The notes below the pieces were generated by a model that worked only from the letters and a program-made list of their open reading frames with translations, had not been told where the DNA came from and made no database searches. A stretch of DNA of 64,000 nucleotides from Vulcanimicrobiota bacterium (lineage in GTDB: Bacteria; Vulcanimicrobiota; Vulcanimicrobiia; Vulcanimicrobiales; Vulcanimicrobiaceae), in the NCBI GenBank assembly GCA_027452165.1, contig DAIDGX010000023.1:62001-126000 (forward strand), read 5' to 3'. Positions within the stretch are counted from its first letter, which is position 1; each line of letters starts with the position of its first letter. Below, piece after piece: positions 49,268 through 56,186 of this stretch. The position numbers and the translations under genes are program-made.

Positions 49268-50209
49268 TTACGCCGACGCCGTCTCGCGCATGGCGAACTC
49301 GAGCGCTTCGAGATGTTTCTCGGCATCCATCGCAGCCTTGCATCCCGCACCCGCGGCGGTAATTGCCTGCTTGTAGCGCAGATCGCTCACGTCGCCGGCG
49401 ACGAACACCCCTTCGACGCTCGTCGCGGTGCCGTCGGGGGAAACGATGTACCCTGCCTCGTCGAGATCGATGTGCCCCTGAAACACACCGGTGTTCGGGG
49501 TGTGGCCGATGGCGATGAACAACGCGTCGGCCGCAAACTCGGTGATCTCGCCGGTCTCGATGTTACGCAGTTTGAGGCCCGTCATCACGGGATCGCCCAG
49601 CACCTCATCGACGACCGTGTTCCATACGAAGGCGATCTTCTCATGAGACATGGCGCGTTCGGCCATGATCTTGCTCGCGCGCAGATGATCGCGACGATGG
49701 ATCACCGTCACCTTGCGTCCAAAACGCGTGAGGAAGAGCGCTTCCTCCATCGCGGAATCACCTCCGCCGACCACGACGATGTGTTTGTCACGGAAGAACG
49801 CACCATCGCACGTCGCACACGTCGAGACCCCGCGTCCGCGCAGCTTCTCCTCGCCGGGGATCTCCAGCCAACGCGCGCTCGCGCCCGTCGCTACGATCAC
49901 GGTCTTAGCGTGAAACTCGCCATCACCCGTGCGCACCGTGAATGGACGCTTGCTGAAATCGACCCCCGTAACATCGACGTTCTCGATGCGCGCGCCGAAT
50001 CGCTCAGCCTGCTCGCGGAACTTGATCATCAGGTCGGGGCCCATGATGCCCTCCGGGAATCCCGGGAAGTTTTCGACATCGGTCGTCAGCATCAACTGGC
50101 CGCCATACAGGCCGCCCGCAAGGACTAAGGGATTCAGGTTCGCGCGCGCCGCGTAGATCGCGGCGGTGAGTCCGGCGGGGCCGGAGCCGATGATGATGAC
50201 TCGTTCCAT
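49268..50209 (-). CDS. trxB: Thioredoxin-disulfide reductase
   Basis: 313 residues from ATG at 50209. RVIIIGSGPAGLTAAIYAAR (FAD), redox-active STCATCDGAFF (CATC), VVVGGGDSAMEEALFLTRFG (NADPH) and GVFVAGDVSDLRYKQAITAA are all standard TrxB motifs. Keeps thioredoxin reduced, which would in turn support the selenoperoxiredoxin at the left end of the window. An upstream in-frame extension is not homologous. Confidence 0.96.
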   Translation of the reverse strand: MERVIIIGSGPAGLTAAIYAARANLNPLVLAGGLYGGQLMLTTDVENFPGFPEGIMGPDLMIKFREQAERFGARIENVDVTGVDFSKRPFTVRTGDGEFHAKTVIVATGASARWLEIPGEEKLRGRGVSTCATCDGAFFRDKHIVVVGGGDSAMEEALFLTRFGRKVTVIHRRDHLRASKIMAERAMSHEKIAFVWNTVVDEVLGDPVMTGLKLRNIETGEITEFAADALFIAIGHTPNTGVFQGHIDLDEAGYIVSPDGTATSVEGVFVAGDVSDLRYKQAITAAGAGCKAAMDAEKHLEALEFAMRETASA

Positions 50210-50439
50210 GGTCGCGCTAGCTTCGACCCGCACCCCGGCCATCCCGGTTGCAGACCCGCTCCGCGTGCCCCCACCCCTTTTCGCCACTCTATGCTACGTC
50301 GCAGTGTACAACGGGCGTAACGAGCTCGGCGCGAAGCGATTATCAGCGGCCGGGCATCATGTCCCAGGGAATAATGCGCGCCCTATAAACCGGGCTTTTC
50401 GCTATCCCGGCTTCCTCCCGTCCCGGCTACACTTGGACG

Positions 50440-50880
50440 ATGAGTACACCGGCATCGCGCAAGTTCCATCTCGCCATGCTTGCCGCGGCACTGCTCGCGT
50501 TCTTCCAGGTCGCACCGTCGCTCGCGACGACCTGCGCGGGGCCCGACGTGGCCGTCGTTTCGGTCGTCGTCAAGGCCATAGGAACGAACGGCGCACTCAA
50601 TCGTTACCGATTGCTGGCCAAGGTCGTCAACCTCGGCCGCGTTGCCCAACTCTCAAACACGCTGCAATTCGTTGACATCTATAAGGGTCGCGTAAAGCAA
50701 GATTCGCGCGGCATTCCTCCGCTCAAACCCGGCCAGTCATACGCATTCGAATATGTAGCGACGCGGTCCGCCCAGGCCGGCAGCCACACGACGGAACTCG
50801 CCTTTCGAATGAACGTCCGCTCACCTCGTGGAGCGCAAGACTGCAGCACCGGTAACGGCATCAGTATGGTCAGCTTTTAA
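50440..50880 (+). CDS. Small exported protein, CARDB-like
   Basis: 146 residues. Signal peptide LAMLAAALLAFFQVAPSLA, then a beta-rich mature part (DVAVVSVVVKAIGTNG, YRLLAKVVNLGRVAQ, PPLKPGQSYAFEYVATRSAQ) resembling a CARDB/Ig-like domain, with two Cys (TTCAGPD and QDCSTG) that could form a disulfide. The 230 bp upstream contain no other recognised feature. Function unknown. Confidence 0.7.
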   Translation: MSTPASRKFHLAMLAAALLAFFQVAPSLATTCAGPDVAVVSVVVKAIGTNGALNRYRLLAKVVNLGRVAQLSNTLQFVDIYKGRVKQDSRGIPPLKPGQSYAFEYVATRSAQAGSHTTELAFRMNVRSPRGAQDCSTGNGISMVSF

Positions 50881-50883
50881 GAT

Positions 50884-51006
50884 ATGGATGTATTTGTAGC
50901 GCTTGCGCCTGCGGCATTCTTCTGCTTGATCGCGCTGTCGCCAACGTCCGCGCAACTCCTCGTCGCCAATAACAACGGTCACCTCGTCCGTAAGGAACGC
51001 TCATGA
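50884..51006 (+). CDS. Possible 40-residue secreted/membrane peptide
   Basis: ATG at 50884 opens a 40-codon frame ending in TGA at 51004-51006, which overlaps the ATG of the next gene (ATGA). The peptide starts with a signal-like hydrophobic run (VFVALAPAAFFCLIALSP, then TSAQ) followed by LLVANNNGHLVRKERS. Position and coupling suggest a real small gene or a translational leader for the YXWGXW protein; the weak ribosome site (only AAG) argues for caution. Confidence 0.35.
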   Translation: MDVFVALAPAAFFCLIALSPTSAQLLVANNNGHLVRKERS

Positions 51007-51920
51007 CAACTCGTGCAATTTTCCGCATTGCCTCAACGATCGTCGCAGCGGCGCTGTTGTTTGCGATTCTTCCGGTACGCTCCAACGCGCAAAATCTCTC
51101 GTCGTTCAGCTTGTCGAACCTCGTGAATCTCTTGTTGAACACGACGCCACCCGCGCTACCACAGTACTATCAACCCTCTGCGCCGCAACAAAATATGATC
51201 TGGCAGCCGGGATACTGGTCTTACGGGCAAGGCGGATACTTTTGGGTACCCGGCACCTGGGTGTACCCGCCGCGAACAGGGCTCTATTGGACCCCCGGAT
51301 ATTGGGGATCGGACGGCGGCGGGTACCGCTGGAACCCCGGATATTGGTCGCAAAGTGTGGGCTATTACGGCGGCGTCAACTACGGGAACGGCTATTACGG
51401 AAACGGCTACAGCGGCGGCCGCTGGCACGGCAACGATTTCTACTATAACACCGCCGTAAGCAACGTTCAGACCAGGTACGTGCGGTATGTCTATGTCGAT
51501 CGCACCGCCCTCGTGAATCAATACCGTGGGAATCGCATTTCGTATAACGGGGGACGCGGCGGATTCAGCGCGCACCCGACGCACGCGGATGTTGCGGCTG
51601 CCCGCGAACGGCATTACCCAATGACGAGCGCACAGCGGCAACACATACTTGTCGCCTCACAGAATCGCAATTACCTTGCAAGCGTAAACCACGGGCGCCC
51701 CGCGGTCGTCAGCGTCCCGAGGCCGCTTGCGGCGCACAATCATCCCGTCGGCTTTAGTCCGGTGAGATCCAGCGATCGTATTCAACATGCGGCCCCAGTG
51801 CGTCGACCGCAGCAACAACACGAGGCCCCGGTGCGTCGGCCGCAGCAACAACGCGCGCCATCGCATCAACACCACACGAAACCCCATGCGAAAGCTACGT
51901 CGCAACCGGCGTTAAGGTAA
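51003..51920 (+). CDS. Exported YXWGXW-repeat protein
   Basis: 305 residues. Signal peptide IVAAALLFAILPVRSNAQ; then aromatic repeats of the YXWGXW kind (WQPGYWSYGQGGYFWVPGTW, LYWTPGYWGSDGGGYRWNPG), a Gly/Tyr/Asn-rich stretch (GGVNYGNGYYGNGYSGG) and a His/Gln-rich tail with the repeat APVRRPQQQ. Such proteins are envelope or stress-associated, without a defined activity. Low-complexity regions make detailed homology unreliable. Confidence 0.78.
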   Translation: MTTRAIFRIASTIVAAALLFAILPVRSNAQNLSSFSLSNLVNLLLNTTPPALPQYYQPSAPQQNMIWQPGYWSYGQGGYFWVPGTWVYPPRTGLYWTPGYWGSDGGGYRWNPGYWSQSVGYYGGVNYGNGYYGNGYSGGRWHGNDFYYNTAVSNVQTRYVRYVYVDRTALVNQYRGNRISYNGGRGGFSAHPTHADVAAARERHYPMTSAQRQHILVASQNRNYLASVNHGRPAVVSVPRPLAAHNHPVGFSPVRSSDRIQHAAPVRRPQQQHEAPVRRPQQQRAPSHQHHTKPHAKATSQPALR

Positions 51921-51924
51921 CATC

Positions 51925-52729
51925 ATGCGTTTTCTAGGTTATATCATCGCATTGCTTCTCTGCTCCGGCGCAATAGCCGTTGCGGATCCGCCCGCGACGT
52001 TTGGAACCCCGCCGTCCGGCCAAATTCCGATTCTCTACAACGATCACACGGTCTATGCGAAGCCGGACATCCTCAAAAAAGGGCGCGTCCTTGCTGCGTT
52101 AGCTAAAGATGGACAAATTTACCGGCGCGAACGACGCCGACGGCGCGACCGCGATCTATGCAACCGGCTTTAACTCGAACGCCGCGTTCCTCATAGCGGC
52201 CCAGGCTGCCGTGACCAATGCATACACCTTGGCGTCGGCTGCGCATGCAGGCACAATCACCTTCCTCCGAGGCGTGGATCTTTCGCAAGCGAGTTCCGGC
52301 GTCAGCAACTGCGGACCGGCTGGAAACGCGGCCTGCGGTGTCGGAACTCTTGGTGCCGGCGTGTACAACTCGGCCTCAACCATGTCGATTACGGCGGGGC
52401 CGTTGACTCTTGACGGTGGGGGAAACGCGCAAAGTGTATTCATCTTCCAGATTGGGTCCGCGCTCACGATGGCCGCACCCGGCGGCAATATGATCCTGGT
52501 GAACGGTGCGAATGCTTGCAACATCTACTGGGCCGATCTCAGCGGAGCGACGCTCGGCGGTGTGCCCACGGGCGCGTCGTTCTATGGGAACATTCTCGCT
52601 CCAACCGGCGCGATCGCGATAAGCACAGCCATCACCACGTTCAAGGGTCGAGCCTTAGCCGGTAGCGCCGGCGTCACGATTTCCGCACCGACGACCGGTC
52701 TGACCATTACCGGACCTGGCGGCAACTAA
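51925..52729 (+). pseudogene. Broken exported gene: Cu-amine-oxidase-N-like start, out-of-frame ice-binding-like (DUF3494) end
   Basis: The frame from ATG 51925 gives a signal peptide (YIIALLLCSGAIAVA) and a segment like the copper-amine-oxidase N-terminal domain (LYNDHTVYAKPDILKKGRVL, DGQIY), then turns into an Arg-rich run to a stop at 52171-52173. From about 52120 a second frame carries the C-terminal two thirds of a DUF3494 ice-binding-like domain (GAGVYNSASTMSI, VFIFQIGSALTMAAPGGNMI, ASFYGNILAPTGAI) to 52729. Its first ATG (52109) has no ribosome site or signal peptide, and the domain's N-terminal strand-helix part is missing. A deletion joining two genes with a frameshift explains this best; an assembly error is possible. 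Confidence 0.65.
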
Positions 52730-52753
52730 TCAATGCGGAACGTGACGGCATGA

Positions 52754-52793
52754 CATGGCGCGGCTCGCAACGGAAGTTGCGAGCCGCGCCATG
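52754..52793. repeat. Perfect 18-bp inverted repeat overlapping a possible start codon
   Basis: Arms 52754-52771 and 52776-52793 are perfect inverse complements with a GGAA loop. In RNA this is a very stable GNRA-type tetraloop hairpin. It begins 25 bp after the broken ice-binding-like gene, and the right arm includes an ATG (52791) of the XRE-MBL gene. It may be a terminator (no T-run) or hide that gene's start. Confidence 0.7.
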
Positions 52794-53663
52794 GCGAACG
52801 TGTGCGGCATGGACGATTGGCCGCGAATTCCGCTCGAGGATACGTTCGGCGACGTGCTGCGCAAAGCCATGCGTGGCGCCGGCCTCGATCAGCGTATGCT
52901 CGCCGCACGCAGCGGGATCGACGCGCAGTCGATCACGCGCTGGTTGAAGGACGACGGCACCGCAACCATACCCCAAGCGCGCGCCCTTGCAACCGCGCTT
53001 GGGCTTAGCCCCGAACGGCTCGCCGAGCGTGCGCTCGGAATCTGGTATCCGCAGATCCCGCGGGTTGATGATGTGCGCCATCACCCACAAGACCCGCATC
53101 CAAGTAACGGGTACGTCGTCTTCCTCGACGGCGGCAAGCGAGCGGCGCTGGTCGATCCGGCAGGCGTGCCCGAACGCCTCGTGCGCATGCTGCGTGATGG
53201 CGCGTACGGCCTCGAGTACATCCTGATTACGCACAAGCACGCTGACCACTGCGACGCGACGCATGAGGTCGCGACGGCGTTTCCCGATGCCAAGATCGTG
53301 ATGCACGAACTGGACGTACATGCCATCGGCACGCTCGCGCGCTCAGCTCTGCGGGTGCGCGACGGCGAGGAACTACCCTTCGGCGACGGCGCGCGCATTC
53401 GCATGTTGCACACCCCTGGACATACCGATGGCTCGTCGTCCTATCTCGTACGCTCGACCCTCTTTACCGGCGACACGCTCTTTGCCGGAAGCGTCGGCGG
53501 CGCGTATGGCAACGCCAGCACCTACGATGACATCCTCAACGGCATCCGCTCAAAAATCTTCACCCTTCCCGACGATACGGTGCTGATGCCCGGGCATGGC
53601 CCGCCCTCGACCATCGGTCAAGAGCGCGCGCATAACCCATTTTTTCATGATCATGACGGGTGA
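52791..53663 (+). CDS. XRE helix-turn-helix fused to an MBL-fold hydrolase
   Basis: About 290 residues. The N-terminus (FGDVLRKAMRGAGLDQRMLA, SGIDAQSITRWLKD) is a lambda-repressor-like HTH covering about 65 residues. It is followed by a full metallo-beta-lactamase domain: THKHADHCD, HTPGHTDGSSSYLV, FTGDTLFAGSVGG and PGHGPPST supply the zinc ligands, as in glyoxalase-II/PksB-like hydrolases. This suggests a DNA-binding protein that senses or hydrolyses a thioester or related small molecule. The start is uncertain: ATGs at 52755 and 52791 lie within the hairpin arms, while ATG 52809 lies just after it and also leaves the HTH intact. Confidence 0.8.
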   Translation: MANVCGMDDWPRIPLEDTFGDVLRKAMRGAGLDQRMLAARSGIDAQSITRWLKDDGTATIPQARALATALGLSPERLAERALGIWYPQIPRVDDVRHHPQDPHPSNGYVVFLDGGKRAALVDPAGVPERLVRMLRDGAYGLEYILITHKHADHCDATHEVATAFPDAKIVMHELDVHAIGTLARSALRVRDGEELPFGDGARIRMLHTPGHTDGSSSYLVRSTLFTGDTLFAGSVGGAYGNASTYDDILNGIRSKIFTLPDDTVLMPGHGPPSTIGQERAHNPFFHDHDG

Positions 53664-54360
53664 TCGTTCACCCTGGTGGTACCGGCAACGCGGGCTGATC
53701 TTTCTCGCGTTCTACGTCCTTGGGTTCACCGCCGGCGCATGGCTCTGCACAAGCACGGACGACAACACGACCTTCGCGTGGCTTGGCCTGCACACGGGAA
53801 TCGACGATCGCGTGTGGCTCGCCATCGCCGTGGCTGCGAGCCTGGGCGGCTGGGCTCTGCGACTCGTGGGAGCCGCCTATCTACGCGATCGCGTCGTACA
53901 GCATCGCGATGCACAGGCCGAAACGCTCTGCGTTAGCGGACCATTTCGCTTCGTCCGCAATCCGCTCTATCTCGGCAACATCATCCTCGCACTCGGCATC
54001 GGCGCCTTCGCGCCGGTCTGCGGGCTGGGATTGCTGCTCCTCGGCACCACGGGATTTGCGTGGATTCTCGCCACGTACGAAACGCACGTCATGCGCGCCC
54101 GATTCGGCGAGGCCTATTGCTCCTACGAACGCAGCGTCCCCGCGCTCGTTCCGCGCATCACGGCGGTCGCCGCGCTCGGTCCGGAGACGACGCCGTCGTT
54201 TCGTTCGGGCATGCGTTCGGAATTGCTCACCGCTGCACTCGCCGCCGCAACCATCATCGCGTGCTTTGCGCCCGAGCGCGCGCCCCTTATCTTTGCCGTC
54301 GGCTGGTTAGCCGGCGTTGCGACGCGGATCGGCGTTAGCGGGTCGCGTTCGGCACCCTGA
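53647..54360 (+). CDS. Isoprenylcysteine carboxyl methyltransferase (ICMT/PEMT)-like membrane protein
   Basis: 237 residues from ATG at 53647 (ATG 53653 also possible), overlapping the previous gene's end. Transmembrane segments include LIFLAFYVLGFTAGAWL, LAIAVAASLGGWALRLVGA, IILALGIGAFAPVCGLGLLL and a C-terminal pair. VSGPFRFVRNPLYLGNI followed by YETHVMRARFGEAYCSYERS is the SAM-binding ICMT/PEMT signature. It probably methylates a lipid or membrane-associated group. The 3' end overlaps the convergent small gene by 26 nt. Confidence 0.85.
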   Translation: MIMTGDRSPWWYRQRGLIFLAFYVLGFTAGAWLCTSTDDNTTFAWLGLHTGIDDRVWLAIAVAASLGGWALRLVGAAYLRDRVVQHRDAQAETLCVSGPFRFVRNPLYLGNIILALGIGAFAPVCGLGLLLLGTTGFAWILATYETHVMRARFGEAYCSYERSVPALVPRITAVAALGPETTPSFRSGMRSELLTAALAAATIIACFAPERAPLIFAVGWLAGVATRIGVSGSRSAP

Positions 54361-54679
54361 CGGTGCGTCCATCGCTGGTGCGAATCACCGCGCCGCTTGC
54401 GTGCGGAGCGTTGTCGGTTTCGCGAATCAGCTCGAACTGCAGCACCACCGTGCCCGAGGCTGGAATCTTTTCCGAGACCTGCATCGGCGAACACACGTGT
54501 TCGTTACAGAACGCGGCGATCCAGCCGTCGGCGATCCCGGAGGCCGTCACGCGCACCGTACTCCCGGGCTTCCCGGCGATCGAGAGGCGGTACTTTGCCG
54601 CCGCTTGCGTTGCGGTCGGGAGATTTTTTCCGTTCCAGGGCGAGATGGCGAGCGAGACGAGCGCGAGGGTAGGCAGCAC
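54335..54679 (-). CDS. Small exported protein, unknown
   Basis: 114 residues from GTG at 54679, with AAGGAGG 6 nt upstream. Short hydrophobic N-terminus (LPTLALVSLAISPW), then a beta-rich part (KYRLSIAGKPGSTVRVTASG, TVVLQFELIRETD) with two Cys in FCNEHVCSP. No family recognised. It follows the ABC permease gene by 11 bp on the same strand, so it may belong to the exporter operon. Confidence 0.6.
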   Translation of the reverse strand: MLPTLALVSLAISPWNGKNLPTATQAAAKYRLSIAGKPGSTVRVTASGIADGWIAAFCNEHVCSPMQVSEKIPASGTVVLQFELIRETDNAPHASGAVIRTSDGRTVRVPNATR

Positions 54680-54690
54680 GTAGGTCCTCC

Positions 54691-55467
54691 TTAGGTACGC
54701 AGTTTGTGTCCGATCGCCATCATGCGTAGCGCCACGAGAAAGGCACCCATGGCAAGCACGGCGATCATCGAAACGGAAAAGCCCAGCGAGAGATAACTCA
54801 CGCCCGTAAAGCTGTAACGAAACGCGTCGATCGTGTAGAAGATCGGATTGAAGAGTTCCAGGTTACGTAGCGCTGGAGGCAGCATCTGCGCCGAGGTGAA
54901 TACGCCGCCGACGAAGGTGAGCGGCGTGATCACGAAGGTGGTGAGCGCGGCCAAGTGATCGAACTTCTCGGCAAGCAATCCGAAGATCAAGCCAAGCGAC
55001 GAAAACAGAATCGAAACCAGGCACAGCACCGACGCATAAAGCAGCCAGTGTACGGGCCACGTGTGAACCAGCACAGCGCCCATGAGCGTGATGAGCGCCG
55101 CGATCAGCAACGCGCGCACGAGACTGCCGAGTACGTATCCGCTTGCCATCTCGAATGCCGACATCGGCGCGATCAGCATCTCCTGAATCGAGTTCATGAA
55201 GCGCCCCTGAAAGATCGAACTCGAGCACTCCCCGTACGACGAGTCGATCACCTGTAGCATGATGAGACCCGGAATCAAAAACTGCGCGTAACTTACCCCT
55301 TGCACGCTCGAAATCCGATTTCCGAGCGCGAGGCCAAATACGAAGACGTAGAGCAGCGTCGAAATGATCGGCGGCCAGATGACCTGATTGATCACTTTCA
55401 TCGTACGAATCAGTTCGCGACGCACGAGCGTCATGAGCCCGATACGATTGAATCCGTCGGTGGCCAT
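54691..55467 (-). CDS. ABC-2 type exporter permease
   Basis: 258 residues from ATG at 55467, sharing one base with the ATPase stop codon. Six hydrophobic segments, for example PIISTLLYVFVFGLALG, LIPGLIMLQVIDSSYGECSS, LLIAALITLMGAVLV, LLYASVLCLVSILFSSLGLI and FVITPLTFVGGVFTSAQMLP, match the ABC-2 family (NodJ/DrrB-like). Exports a drug-like, lipid or polysaccharide substrate together with the following ATPase. Confidence 0.92.
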   Translation of the reverse strand: MATDGFNRIGLMTLVRRELIRTMKVINQVIWPPIISTLLYVFVFGLALGNRISSVQGVSYAQFLIPGLIMLQVIDSSYGECSSSIFQGRFMNSIQEMLIAPMSAFEMASGYVLGSLVRALLIAALITLMGAVLVHTWPVHWLLYASVLCLVSILFSSLGLIFGLLAEKFDHLAALTTFVITPLTFVGGVFTSAQMLPPALRNLELFNPIFYTIDAFRYSFTGVSYLSLGFSVSMIAVLAMGAFLVALRMMAIGHKLRT

Positions 55468-56186
55468 CACGAGCGGGTCAACTCCAAAAAGACGTCCTGA
55501 AGGCTTGACCCCTGCGCGATCAAGTCGCGGGTGGATTGCTGCGTCACGATCCGCCCCTCGCGTATGATCGCGATCGTCTTGCAGAGCGTCTCCGCCTCTT
55601 CCAGATAGTGGGTGGTAAGAAAGATGGTCAGCCCGTCCCGGTTGAGCTCGCGCAGTAGATCCCACAACTCCAATCGCAATTCCACGTCGACGCCCGCGGT
55701 CGGTTCGTCGAGAATGATGAGTTTGGGCTCGTGAATCAGCGCTCGGGCCAGCGTCAATCGGCGCTTCATGCCACCGGAAAGACGCGTGAACTCTTGTTTT
55801 GCCTTCGAGGCGAGCCCGAAACGCTCGAGCAACATATCCGCACGCGCGCGCACCGACGGGCCGCGCAAACCGAAGTAACCGGCTTGAAAAATCAGGACGT
55901 CGCGGATCGAGAGGTAGCGGTCGAAGTTATACTCTTGCGGTGCAAGACCAATCAGACGGCGCGCCTCCCGCCACGCTTCGTGCGCGTCGTACCCGAAGAC
56001 GCGTATGCGTCCGCTCTCCGGGCGCGCGAGCCCCACGATCGCGTTGATCGTCGTCGTCTTGCCCGCGCCGTTCGGGCCGAGGAACCCAAAAAACTCACCG
56101 GCATCGACGCGCAGAGACACGTCGTTGACGGCGGTGAACTTGTCATAGCGTTTGACCAGATTGTCGATCTCGATCGCGGGGCTCAC
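55467..56186 (-). CDS. ABC-2 exporter ATPase (CcmA/NodI type)
   Basis: 239 residues from GTG at 56186. Walker A GFLGPNGAGKTTTINAI, signature RLSGGMKRRLTLARALIH, Walker B LIILDEPTAGVDVELR and H-loop FLTTHYLEEAE. The open frame extends upstream but lies in the phosphoesterase gene. It starts 5 bp after that gene's stop codon, so the exporter is co-transcribed with it. Confidence 0.93.
   Translation of the reverse strand: MSPAIEIDNLVKRYDKFTAVNDVSLRVDAGEFFGFLGPNGAGKTTTINAIVGLARPESGRIRVFGYDAHEAWREARRLIGLAPQEYNFDRYLSIRDVLIFQAGYFGLRGPSVRARADMLLERFGLASKAKQEFTRLSGGMKRRLTLARALIHEPKLIILDEPTAGVDVELRLELWDLLRELNRDGLTIFLTTHYLEEAETLCKTIAIIREGRIVTQQSTRDLIAQGSSLQDVFLELTRS

Follow-up and report, generated by a model that had tools for sequence, protein, structure and literature searches.

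An XRE-like domain joined to a catalytic domain is known from HppE, HEPD, MPnS and cyanase, where it serves the active site or oligomerization and not DNA. In all four a lambda-repressor-like helical domain is fused to the catalytic domain, as in the protein described here, which HppE (1zz6), HEPD (6b9r) and MPnS (6b9s) matched by fold and cyanase (8c7e) matched weakly by profile; their catalytic domains, however, are cupins or have the cyanase fold and are not of the MBL type. The five-helix fold is also shared by XRE regulators such as C.AhdI (1y7y), 434 Cro (2cro) and P22 c2. For the hydrolase part, the closest described enzymes are YcbL and other single-domain glyoxalase II proteins (2xf4; S. 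aureus GloB, 7l0b; BLEG-1, 7ev5) and the ETHE1-type persulfide dioxygenases (4ysb, 4chl, 8zbd). No description of an XRE-MBL architecture was found in the open-licence papers searched. Here we analysed a gene encoding such a protein, located within a 64,000-nucleotide stretch of DNA (the window). Residues are counted from the ATG at 52809.

Table 1. Features of the XRE-MBL locus, with positions in the window
Feature	Positions	Strand	Basis or remark
trxB (thioredoxin reductase), divergent	49268..50209	-	adjoins the XRE-MBL gene in most relatives; here ~2.6 kb away
CAACCGG-N16-GTCGAA element upstream of trxB, promoter-like	50222..50250	-	conserved across the class
Ice-binding-like gene fragment upstream, 3′ end followed by the hairpin	52109..52729	+	ORF list, domain search
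18-bp perfect hairpin, GNRA-type GGAA loop (52772-52775)	52754..52793	+	terminator-like 3′ element of the upstream gene
Mechanical ATG in the left arm, unlikely start	52755..52757	+	without counterpart in relatives
Second ATG, last bases of the right arm, unlikely start	52791..52793	+	comparison with relatives
XRE-MBL gene, 284 codons plus stop, likeliest start ATG 52809	52809..53663	+	comparison with relatives
Lambda-repressor-type five-helix domain, residues 9-79	52833..53045	+	HTH_3, structure models, Foldseek
Recognition helix, residues 38-49	52920..52955	+	lowest conservation of any 12-residue window in the protein
MBL-fold hydrolase domain, residues 92-279	53082..53645	+	domain search, structure model, fold search
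Metal motif HKHADH and invariant Cys148, residues 142-148	53232..53252	+	alignment of 58
PEMT/ICMT-type methyltransferase, overlapping downstream	53647..54360	+	ORF list, domain search

The initial annotation regarded the pairing of an HTH with an intact glyoxalase-II-like hydrolase as unusual, and this was borne out. The open reading frame product matched both HTH_3 (4.8e-9; 36.5 bits, cut-off 23) and Lactamase_B (3.8e-18), and the full-length structure model was a single confident chain (pLDDT 87.6, pTM 0.87, helix blocks 93-98). Relatives were taken from named genomes, giving 69 loci of which 60 (L004-L063) belong to the same family at 53-81% identity, and from a second, genome-based set covering the class and other families. 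Nine of the 69 loci (L064-L072), which are partial or have the MBL part only, do not enter the family counts. The alignment of 58 sequences comprises the window and 57 of the 60 family loci, omitting two at contig ends (L057, L063) and one with an in-frame stop (L039). The latter, at L039 4007-4969, carries a single stop and represents a pseudogene, a frameshift or a sequencing error; L040 has a second, partial XRE-MBL-like open reading frame (66% identity) ~3.0-3.6 kb past the start of the XRE-MBL gene.

A profile of the HTH alone was searched at E <= 1e-6 against 66 genomes of the class (Eremiobacterota) and 32 genomes from other families of the phylum. Exactly one match was found in each of 62 class genomes, always in an open frame of at least 276 codons, and none in the 32 others. 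The domains were encoded as separate genes in 0 of these 62 genomes, and by this comparison the HTH domain appears fused wherever it is found. At the protein level, matches starting at residue 27 or earlier, thus including the HTH, were obtained in 51/55 genomes from the three families of the class (own genome counted). Four class genomes fell outside this count: G003 (match from residue 78), G024 (from residue 62), and G050 and G051, in which only the MBL paralogue matched. In the five genomes from other families the MBL part alone was present. In the scan of named genomes, which required near-exact peptides and could miss distant fusions elsewhere, all full-length relatives were labelled Eremiobacterota, WPS-2, Vulcanimicrobiota, UBP12 or plain bacterium, with the exception of one labelled Rhodospirillales (L036), in which the family gene lies next to trxB as in Eremiobacterota and which is probably a mislabelled metagenome bin. 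Candidate fusions outside the class, on plasmids of Shinella, Natronococcus and Sinorhizobium, were rejected, as their HTH region aligned only to unrelated or rhodanese-type sequence; 436 plasmid records matched, all below 60% identity, of which three were read closely together with the annotation of a fourth. As judged from these genomes, the XRE-MBL fusion is a class-wide, near-universal single-copy gene of uncultured soil bacteria, a moderately surprising result.

The gene had been thought to start within a hairpin covering one candidate start codon. The hairpin does cover start codons, but two in-frame ATGs (at 52755 in the left arm and 52791 in the right arm) and not one, and the conserved start lies beyond it. 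The mechanically called open reading frame (52755-53663) counts 302 codons from its ATG, and the hairpin overlaps the first 13 of these; a third candidate ATG, at 52809, lies 15 nt downstream of the hairpin. In the closest relative (L004, 80% identity) the frame is open further upstream and the first possible start is the equivalent of 52809. This equivalent is also the first ATG of the conserved frame in L005 and the start in L006, and most other relatives start at residues 13-26, numbered from the mechanical ATG 52755. No ATG equivalent to 52755 was common to the neighbouring relatives examined. Because the relatives place the start at 52809 and none shares ATG 52755, the gene most likely starts at 52809, outside the hairpin. 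Its N-terminus would then read MDDWPRIPLED, matching the genus counterpart MSDWPR.PLED.

The hydrolase domain retains all of the metal ligands of glyoxalase II, with H142, H144, D146, H147, H205, D222 and H263 invariant in 58/58 aligned sequences. A fold search with this domain returned BLEG-1, YcbL and GloB at Z 23.6-24.1 and persulfide dioxygenases at Z 22.0-22.7, practically a tie, in a listing dominated by MBL structures from which some families may be missing. Superposition on the YcbL-type enzymes gave an rmsd of 2.0-2.5 over 191-192 residues, and these enzymes share the C-terminal PGHGP..T...E..HNPF. The XRE-MBL protein differs from them in its N-terminal HTH, in a shorter middle loop and in carrying GG-A-Y/F in place of GR-S/T-D: the GR-[ST]-D motif that follows GDxLF in YcbL, BLEG-1 and S. 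aureus GloB is lost, position 231 being Gly in 56/58 sequences and Arg and Ala in one each. It also differs in having Cys148 and Asp149, invariant across the alignment, immediately after HxHxDH, a site at which the YcbL, BLEG-1, S. aureus GloB and ETHE1 reference sequences have other residues. The ETHE1-type enzymes share the MBL fold and a compact domain length (177 profile positions versus 174 residues in 4ysb), whereas the XRE-MBL protein lacks the GRTDF motif of 4ysb, has PGHGPP for PxHDY and bears the extra HTH domain. No rhodanese or sulfide gene was seen beside the XRE-MBL gene among the reference genes compared. The best NCBIfam match was TIGR03413 GSH_gloB, at 85.1 bits under a cut-off of 200.8. 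The lost GR-[ST]-D, the invariant Cys148-Asp149 and the near-tied fold neighbours therefore mark a distinct subfamily of the glyoxalase-II/ETHE1 branch, for which the substrate is predicted only as a thiol derivative. A single-domain MBL paralogue (36%) without HTH is encoded on the same contig (G000:C23:42482-43045; L003).

To judge the HTH domain, it was compared with XRE regulators and with two control XRE families from the same genomes. Modelled alone, it formed five helices (pLDDT 82.3), and Pfam matches were found for HTH_3 in 33/58 members and for HTH_31 in 41/58. Most Foldseek matches of the isolated HTH were DNA-binding XRE proteins, but HEPD (rank 7), MPnS and HppE were also among them; the HTH profile matched cyanase at E 0.009, a weak match, as annexin matches in the same search show. 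Thus the five-helix fold and the Pfam match of XRE regulators are present; the differences are the attached catalytic domain and a recognition helix that is not conserved among orthologues. With a mean entropy of 2.12 bits, the recognition helix ranked 273/273, the highest of any 12-residue window. In the first control family (own locus L105; 22 of 28 fetched loci, L113-L134, used and weak matches left out) the recognition helix had 0.19 bits and ranked 2/106. In the second, XRE-RibBA, it had 0.41 bits and ranked 5/43 within the HTH (172/458 over the whole chain, the enzyme part being even more conserved), so that both control families conserve it better than most of their HTH. Residues of a typical contact type occupied 0-5 of 8 exposed helix-3 positions in the XRE-MBL family. 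Net charge over residues 13-68 was only mildly different (+0.3, versus +1.6 and +0.8 in the controls), though over residues 9-75 it was -2.6.

Before and in helix 1, by contrast, L9, E10, D11, D15, K19, A20 and G23 were invariant in 58/58 sequences. This is not where the lambda-repressor-type fold touches DNA. That this HTH still reads DNA is doubtful, since no part of the protein varies more than its recognition helix; invariant helix-1 residues with a drifting helix 3 fit a domain held in place by contacts with its own enzyme and not by those with an operator.

The XRE-RibBA fusion is of interest in itself. Encoded at G000:C8:127920-129326 (L108, L143), it joins an XRE HTH to the riboflavin synthesis enzyme RibBA and is itself a trigger-enzyme candidate, possibly a better one than XRE-MBL. 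The fusion is conserved, recognition helix included, within the own family and order, and matches from the third family start after the HTH in nearly all cases. A paper on RibBA and HTH proteins deals with delta-proteobacterial riboflavin clusters and not with a fusion.

The XRE-MBL gene usually lies beside trxB. Among the 60 named loci, trxB was adjacent and divergent in 50, with a gap of 32-104 nt in 45 and of 265-268 nt in five; it lay 0.7-2.9 kb away on the same strand in six and was unseen in four, three of which have 332 bases or fewer upstream. In the window, the ~2.6 kb between the two genes carries a WXXGXW-repeat gene and the ice-binding-like open reading frame. The latter lacks the first 48 profile positions and is overlapped by a small secreted-looking open reading frame (51925-52173); the region 51925-52729 looks like a gene-fragment junction made by deletion or assembly. 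The methyltransferase gene downstream was found beside XRE-MBL in 11/90 loci, a count that includes the same genomes fetched twice, and is not a conserved partner. The open-licence papers searched gave nothing of use on trxB in Eremiobacterota.

Between the divergent genes an element, AACCGG-N-GGT[CT]GAA, is strongly conserved at constant spacing. The form CAACCGG-N16-GTCGAA was exact in 30/50 adjacent loci, 9-12 nt before the trxB ATG, with variants in the other 20. When the spacing is left loose (CAACCGG-N15/16-GTCGAA), the own genome has two exact copies, one at trxB and the other ahead of an aldehyde dehydrogenase-like gene (L103 1501-1528); the genomes of relatives gave many further exact loose-pattern matches elsewhere, and a reversed control also matched at times. 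We read this element as a probable promoter, possibly one used by an ECF-type sigma factor.

The hairpin proved to be as perfect and as stable as first described. The sequence CATGGCGCGGCTCGCAAC-GGAA-GTTGCGAGCCGCGCCATG (52754-52793) forms 18 perfect pairs around a loop of 4, and the fold of the 124-nt stretch 52727-52850 reached -65.5 kcal/mol (z -5.2; 0/200 shuffles as stable). The next longest perfect stem anywhere in the window was 11 bp and the longest in 10 block shuffles was 12 bp; the 18-bp hairpin is far beyond chance for the window. In a genome-wide search each arm occurred exactly only as the hairpin's own two arms. A dispersed repeat or mobile element was rejected, since other arm matches with 2 mismatches numbered 32 versus 78 in a reversed control. 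A riboswitch or other conserved RNA element at the gene start was also rejected, no Rfam match at gathering score being found in the window or in 17 of the fetched relative loci; at E <= 1, positions 52400-53100 drew microRNA and sRNA models that fit any perfect hairpin, far below their thresholds. A sigma-70 promoter in the hairpin region was discarded as well, with none predicted in 50000-56000.

The position of the hairpin, a GC-rich stem 24 nt past the stop codon of the ice-binding-like open reading frame, resembles that of a terminator, although the tail after the stem, GCGAACGTGT, has no T run and terminator prediction flagged none. Within 364 kb of the same contig (the window and 15 fetched stretches), 15 perfect hairpins with a stem of at least 12 were found, eight of them with 15-19 bp and mostly with 4-nt loops. 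A simple gene caller places 13 of the 15 between genes; most lie 4-43 nt from the nearest gene end, which is a stop codon, and six have a T-rich tail on one side. Because such hairpins recur on the contig just past stop codons, the hairpin is probably a terminator-like element closing the upstream gene at its 3′ end, acting as a terminator or as a 3′ RNA barrier; it is called terminator-like and not a canonical intrinsic terminator because the window's copy has no T-rich tail. The hairpin itself is ordinary.

Two other accounts of the hairpin and one of the protein have to be weighed against these readings. Control of XRE-MBL translation, in which the hairpin hides the start, was suggested in the initial annotation and draws on the very stable fold and the two in-frame ATGs inside it. 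We consider it very improbable: the conserved start lies outside the hairpin, the hairpin was absent upstream of all relatives scanned (apart from an unrelated 9-bp stem in L060, none showed a stem there), and a genus-level GCGTCGAAC element 9-14 nt before the ATG may point to a short leader starting downstream of the hairpin. Termination of the upstream gene, offered there as the alternative, is the better reading. A further possibility is that the hairpin arose when the promoter region of the XRE-MBL gene was copied locally in inverted form, loop and right arm being ancestral upstream sequence and the left arm a new inverted copy; it would then be an accident of this one genome, whether or not it serves as a terminator. 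An ungapped alignment anchored at ATG 52809 gave 24/39 identities to L004 and to L005 (shifted controls <= 21 and <= 19, respectively), and the left arm matched at 7/18, 4/18 and 6/18 positions in L004, L005 and L006. These are weak hints of an old right arm and loop beside a new left arm; loop and right arm alone matched a modest 11/22 and 14/22 in L004 and L005, L006 showed nothing (13/39 versus a control of up to 19), and similar hairpins are frequent as 3′ elements on the contig. An origin by inverted copying seems unlikely. The fusion and the hairpin are both real but unconnected. Among observations that the initial annotation had named as counting against it, a start at 52809 with a hairpin acting as terminator is what emerged in silico, while separate domain genes in relatives did not.

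For the protein, the alternative is a trigger enzyme, in which the MBL domain would sense or process a thiol derivative and the HTH would repress or activate both trxB and the XRE-MBL gene from the intergenic DNA between them. The position divergent from trxB is a classic one for a regulator, and at gaps as short as those in most loci the promoters would overlap. The HTH is detectable by Pfam in most members, the window's own being the best HTH_3 scorer of the family (36.7 bits, cut-off 23) and keeping R44 and K47; its Foldseek matches are mostly DNA-binding proteins, and the independent XRE-RibBA fusion of the same lineage keeps its recognition helix. Yet the reader of so strongly conserved an intergenic element should keep its helix 3, which is instead the least conserved part, and the constant spacing of the element before trxB looks like that of a sigma-factor promoter, with the exact form in the own genome limited to trxB and one aldehyde dehydrogenase gene. 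The trigger enzyme is the runner-up because the conserved divergent pairing supports it and the drifting recognition helix opposes it; we regard it as rather unlikely. The enzyme reading is preferred, with an HTH that would have been repurposed and would not read a specific DNA sequence.

According to this enzyme reading, the XRE-MBL protein would hydrolyse or oxidise a small thiol derivative (a thioester or persulfide) in a metal-dependent reaction, and the HTH-derived domain would be a structural part of the enzyme, as a lid over the active site or as an oligomerization unit. The pathway would share its redox supply with thioredoxin reductase, the product of the divergent neighbour, and the hairpin would belong to the gene before it, working at that gene's 3′ end as a terminator or RNA barrier. 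Enzyme, structural HTH and terminator hairpin taken as a whole make an explanation that we hold to be evenly poised between right and wrong. More tentatively, with doubt slightly outweighing belief, the HTH may have been captured in the ancestor of one class, where it would have ceased to read DNA and become integral to the active site of a metallohydrolase, a thiol-handling enzyme and nearly invariant partner of thioredoxin reductase across the class; as part of the same proposal, the pocket beside the HTH would have been rewritten, losing GR-T/S-D and gaining Cys148 near the metals. If the HTH is a part of the enzyme, a DNA-binding fold would have been repurposed for catalysis, a warning against annotating such proteins as regulators; if it does bind DNA, the protein would be a one-protein sensor tying thiol chemistry to trxB.
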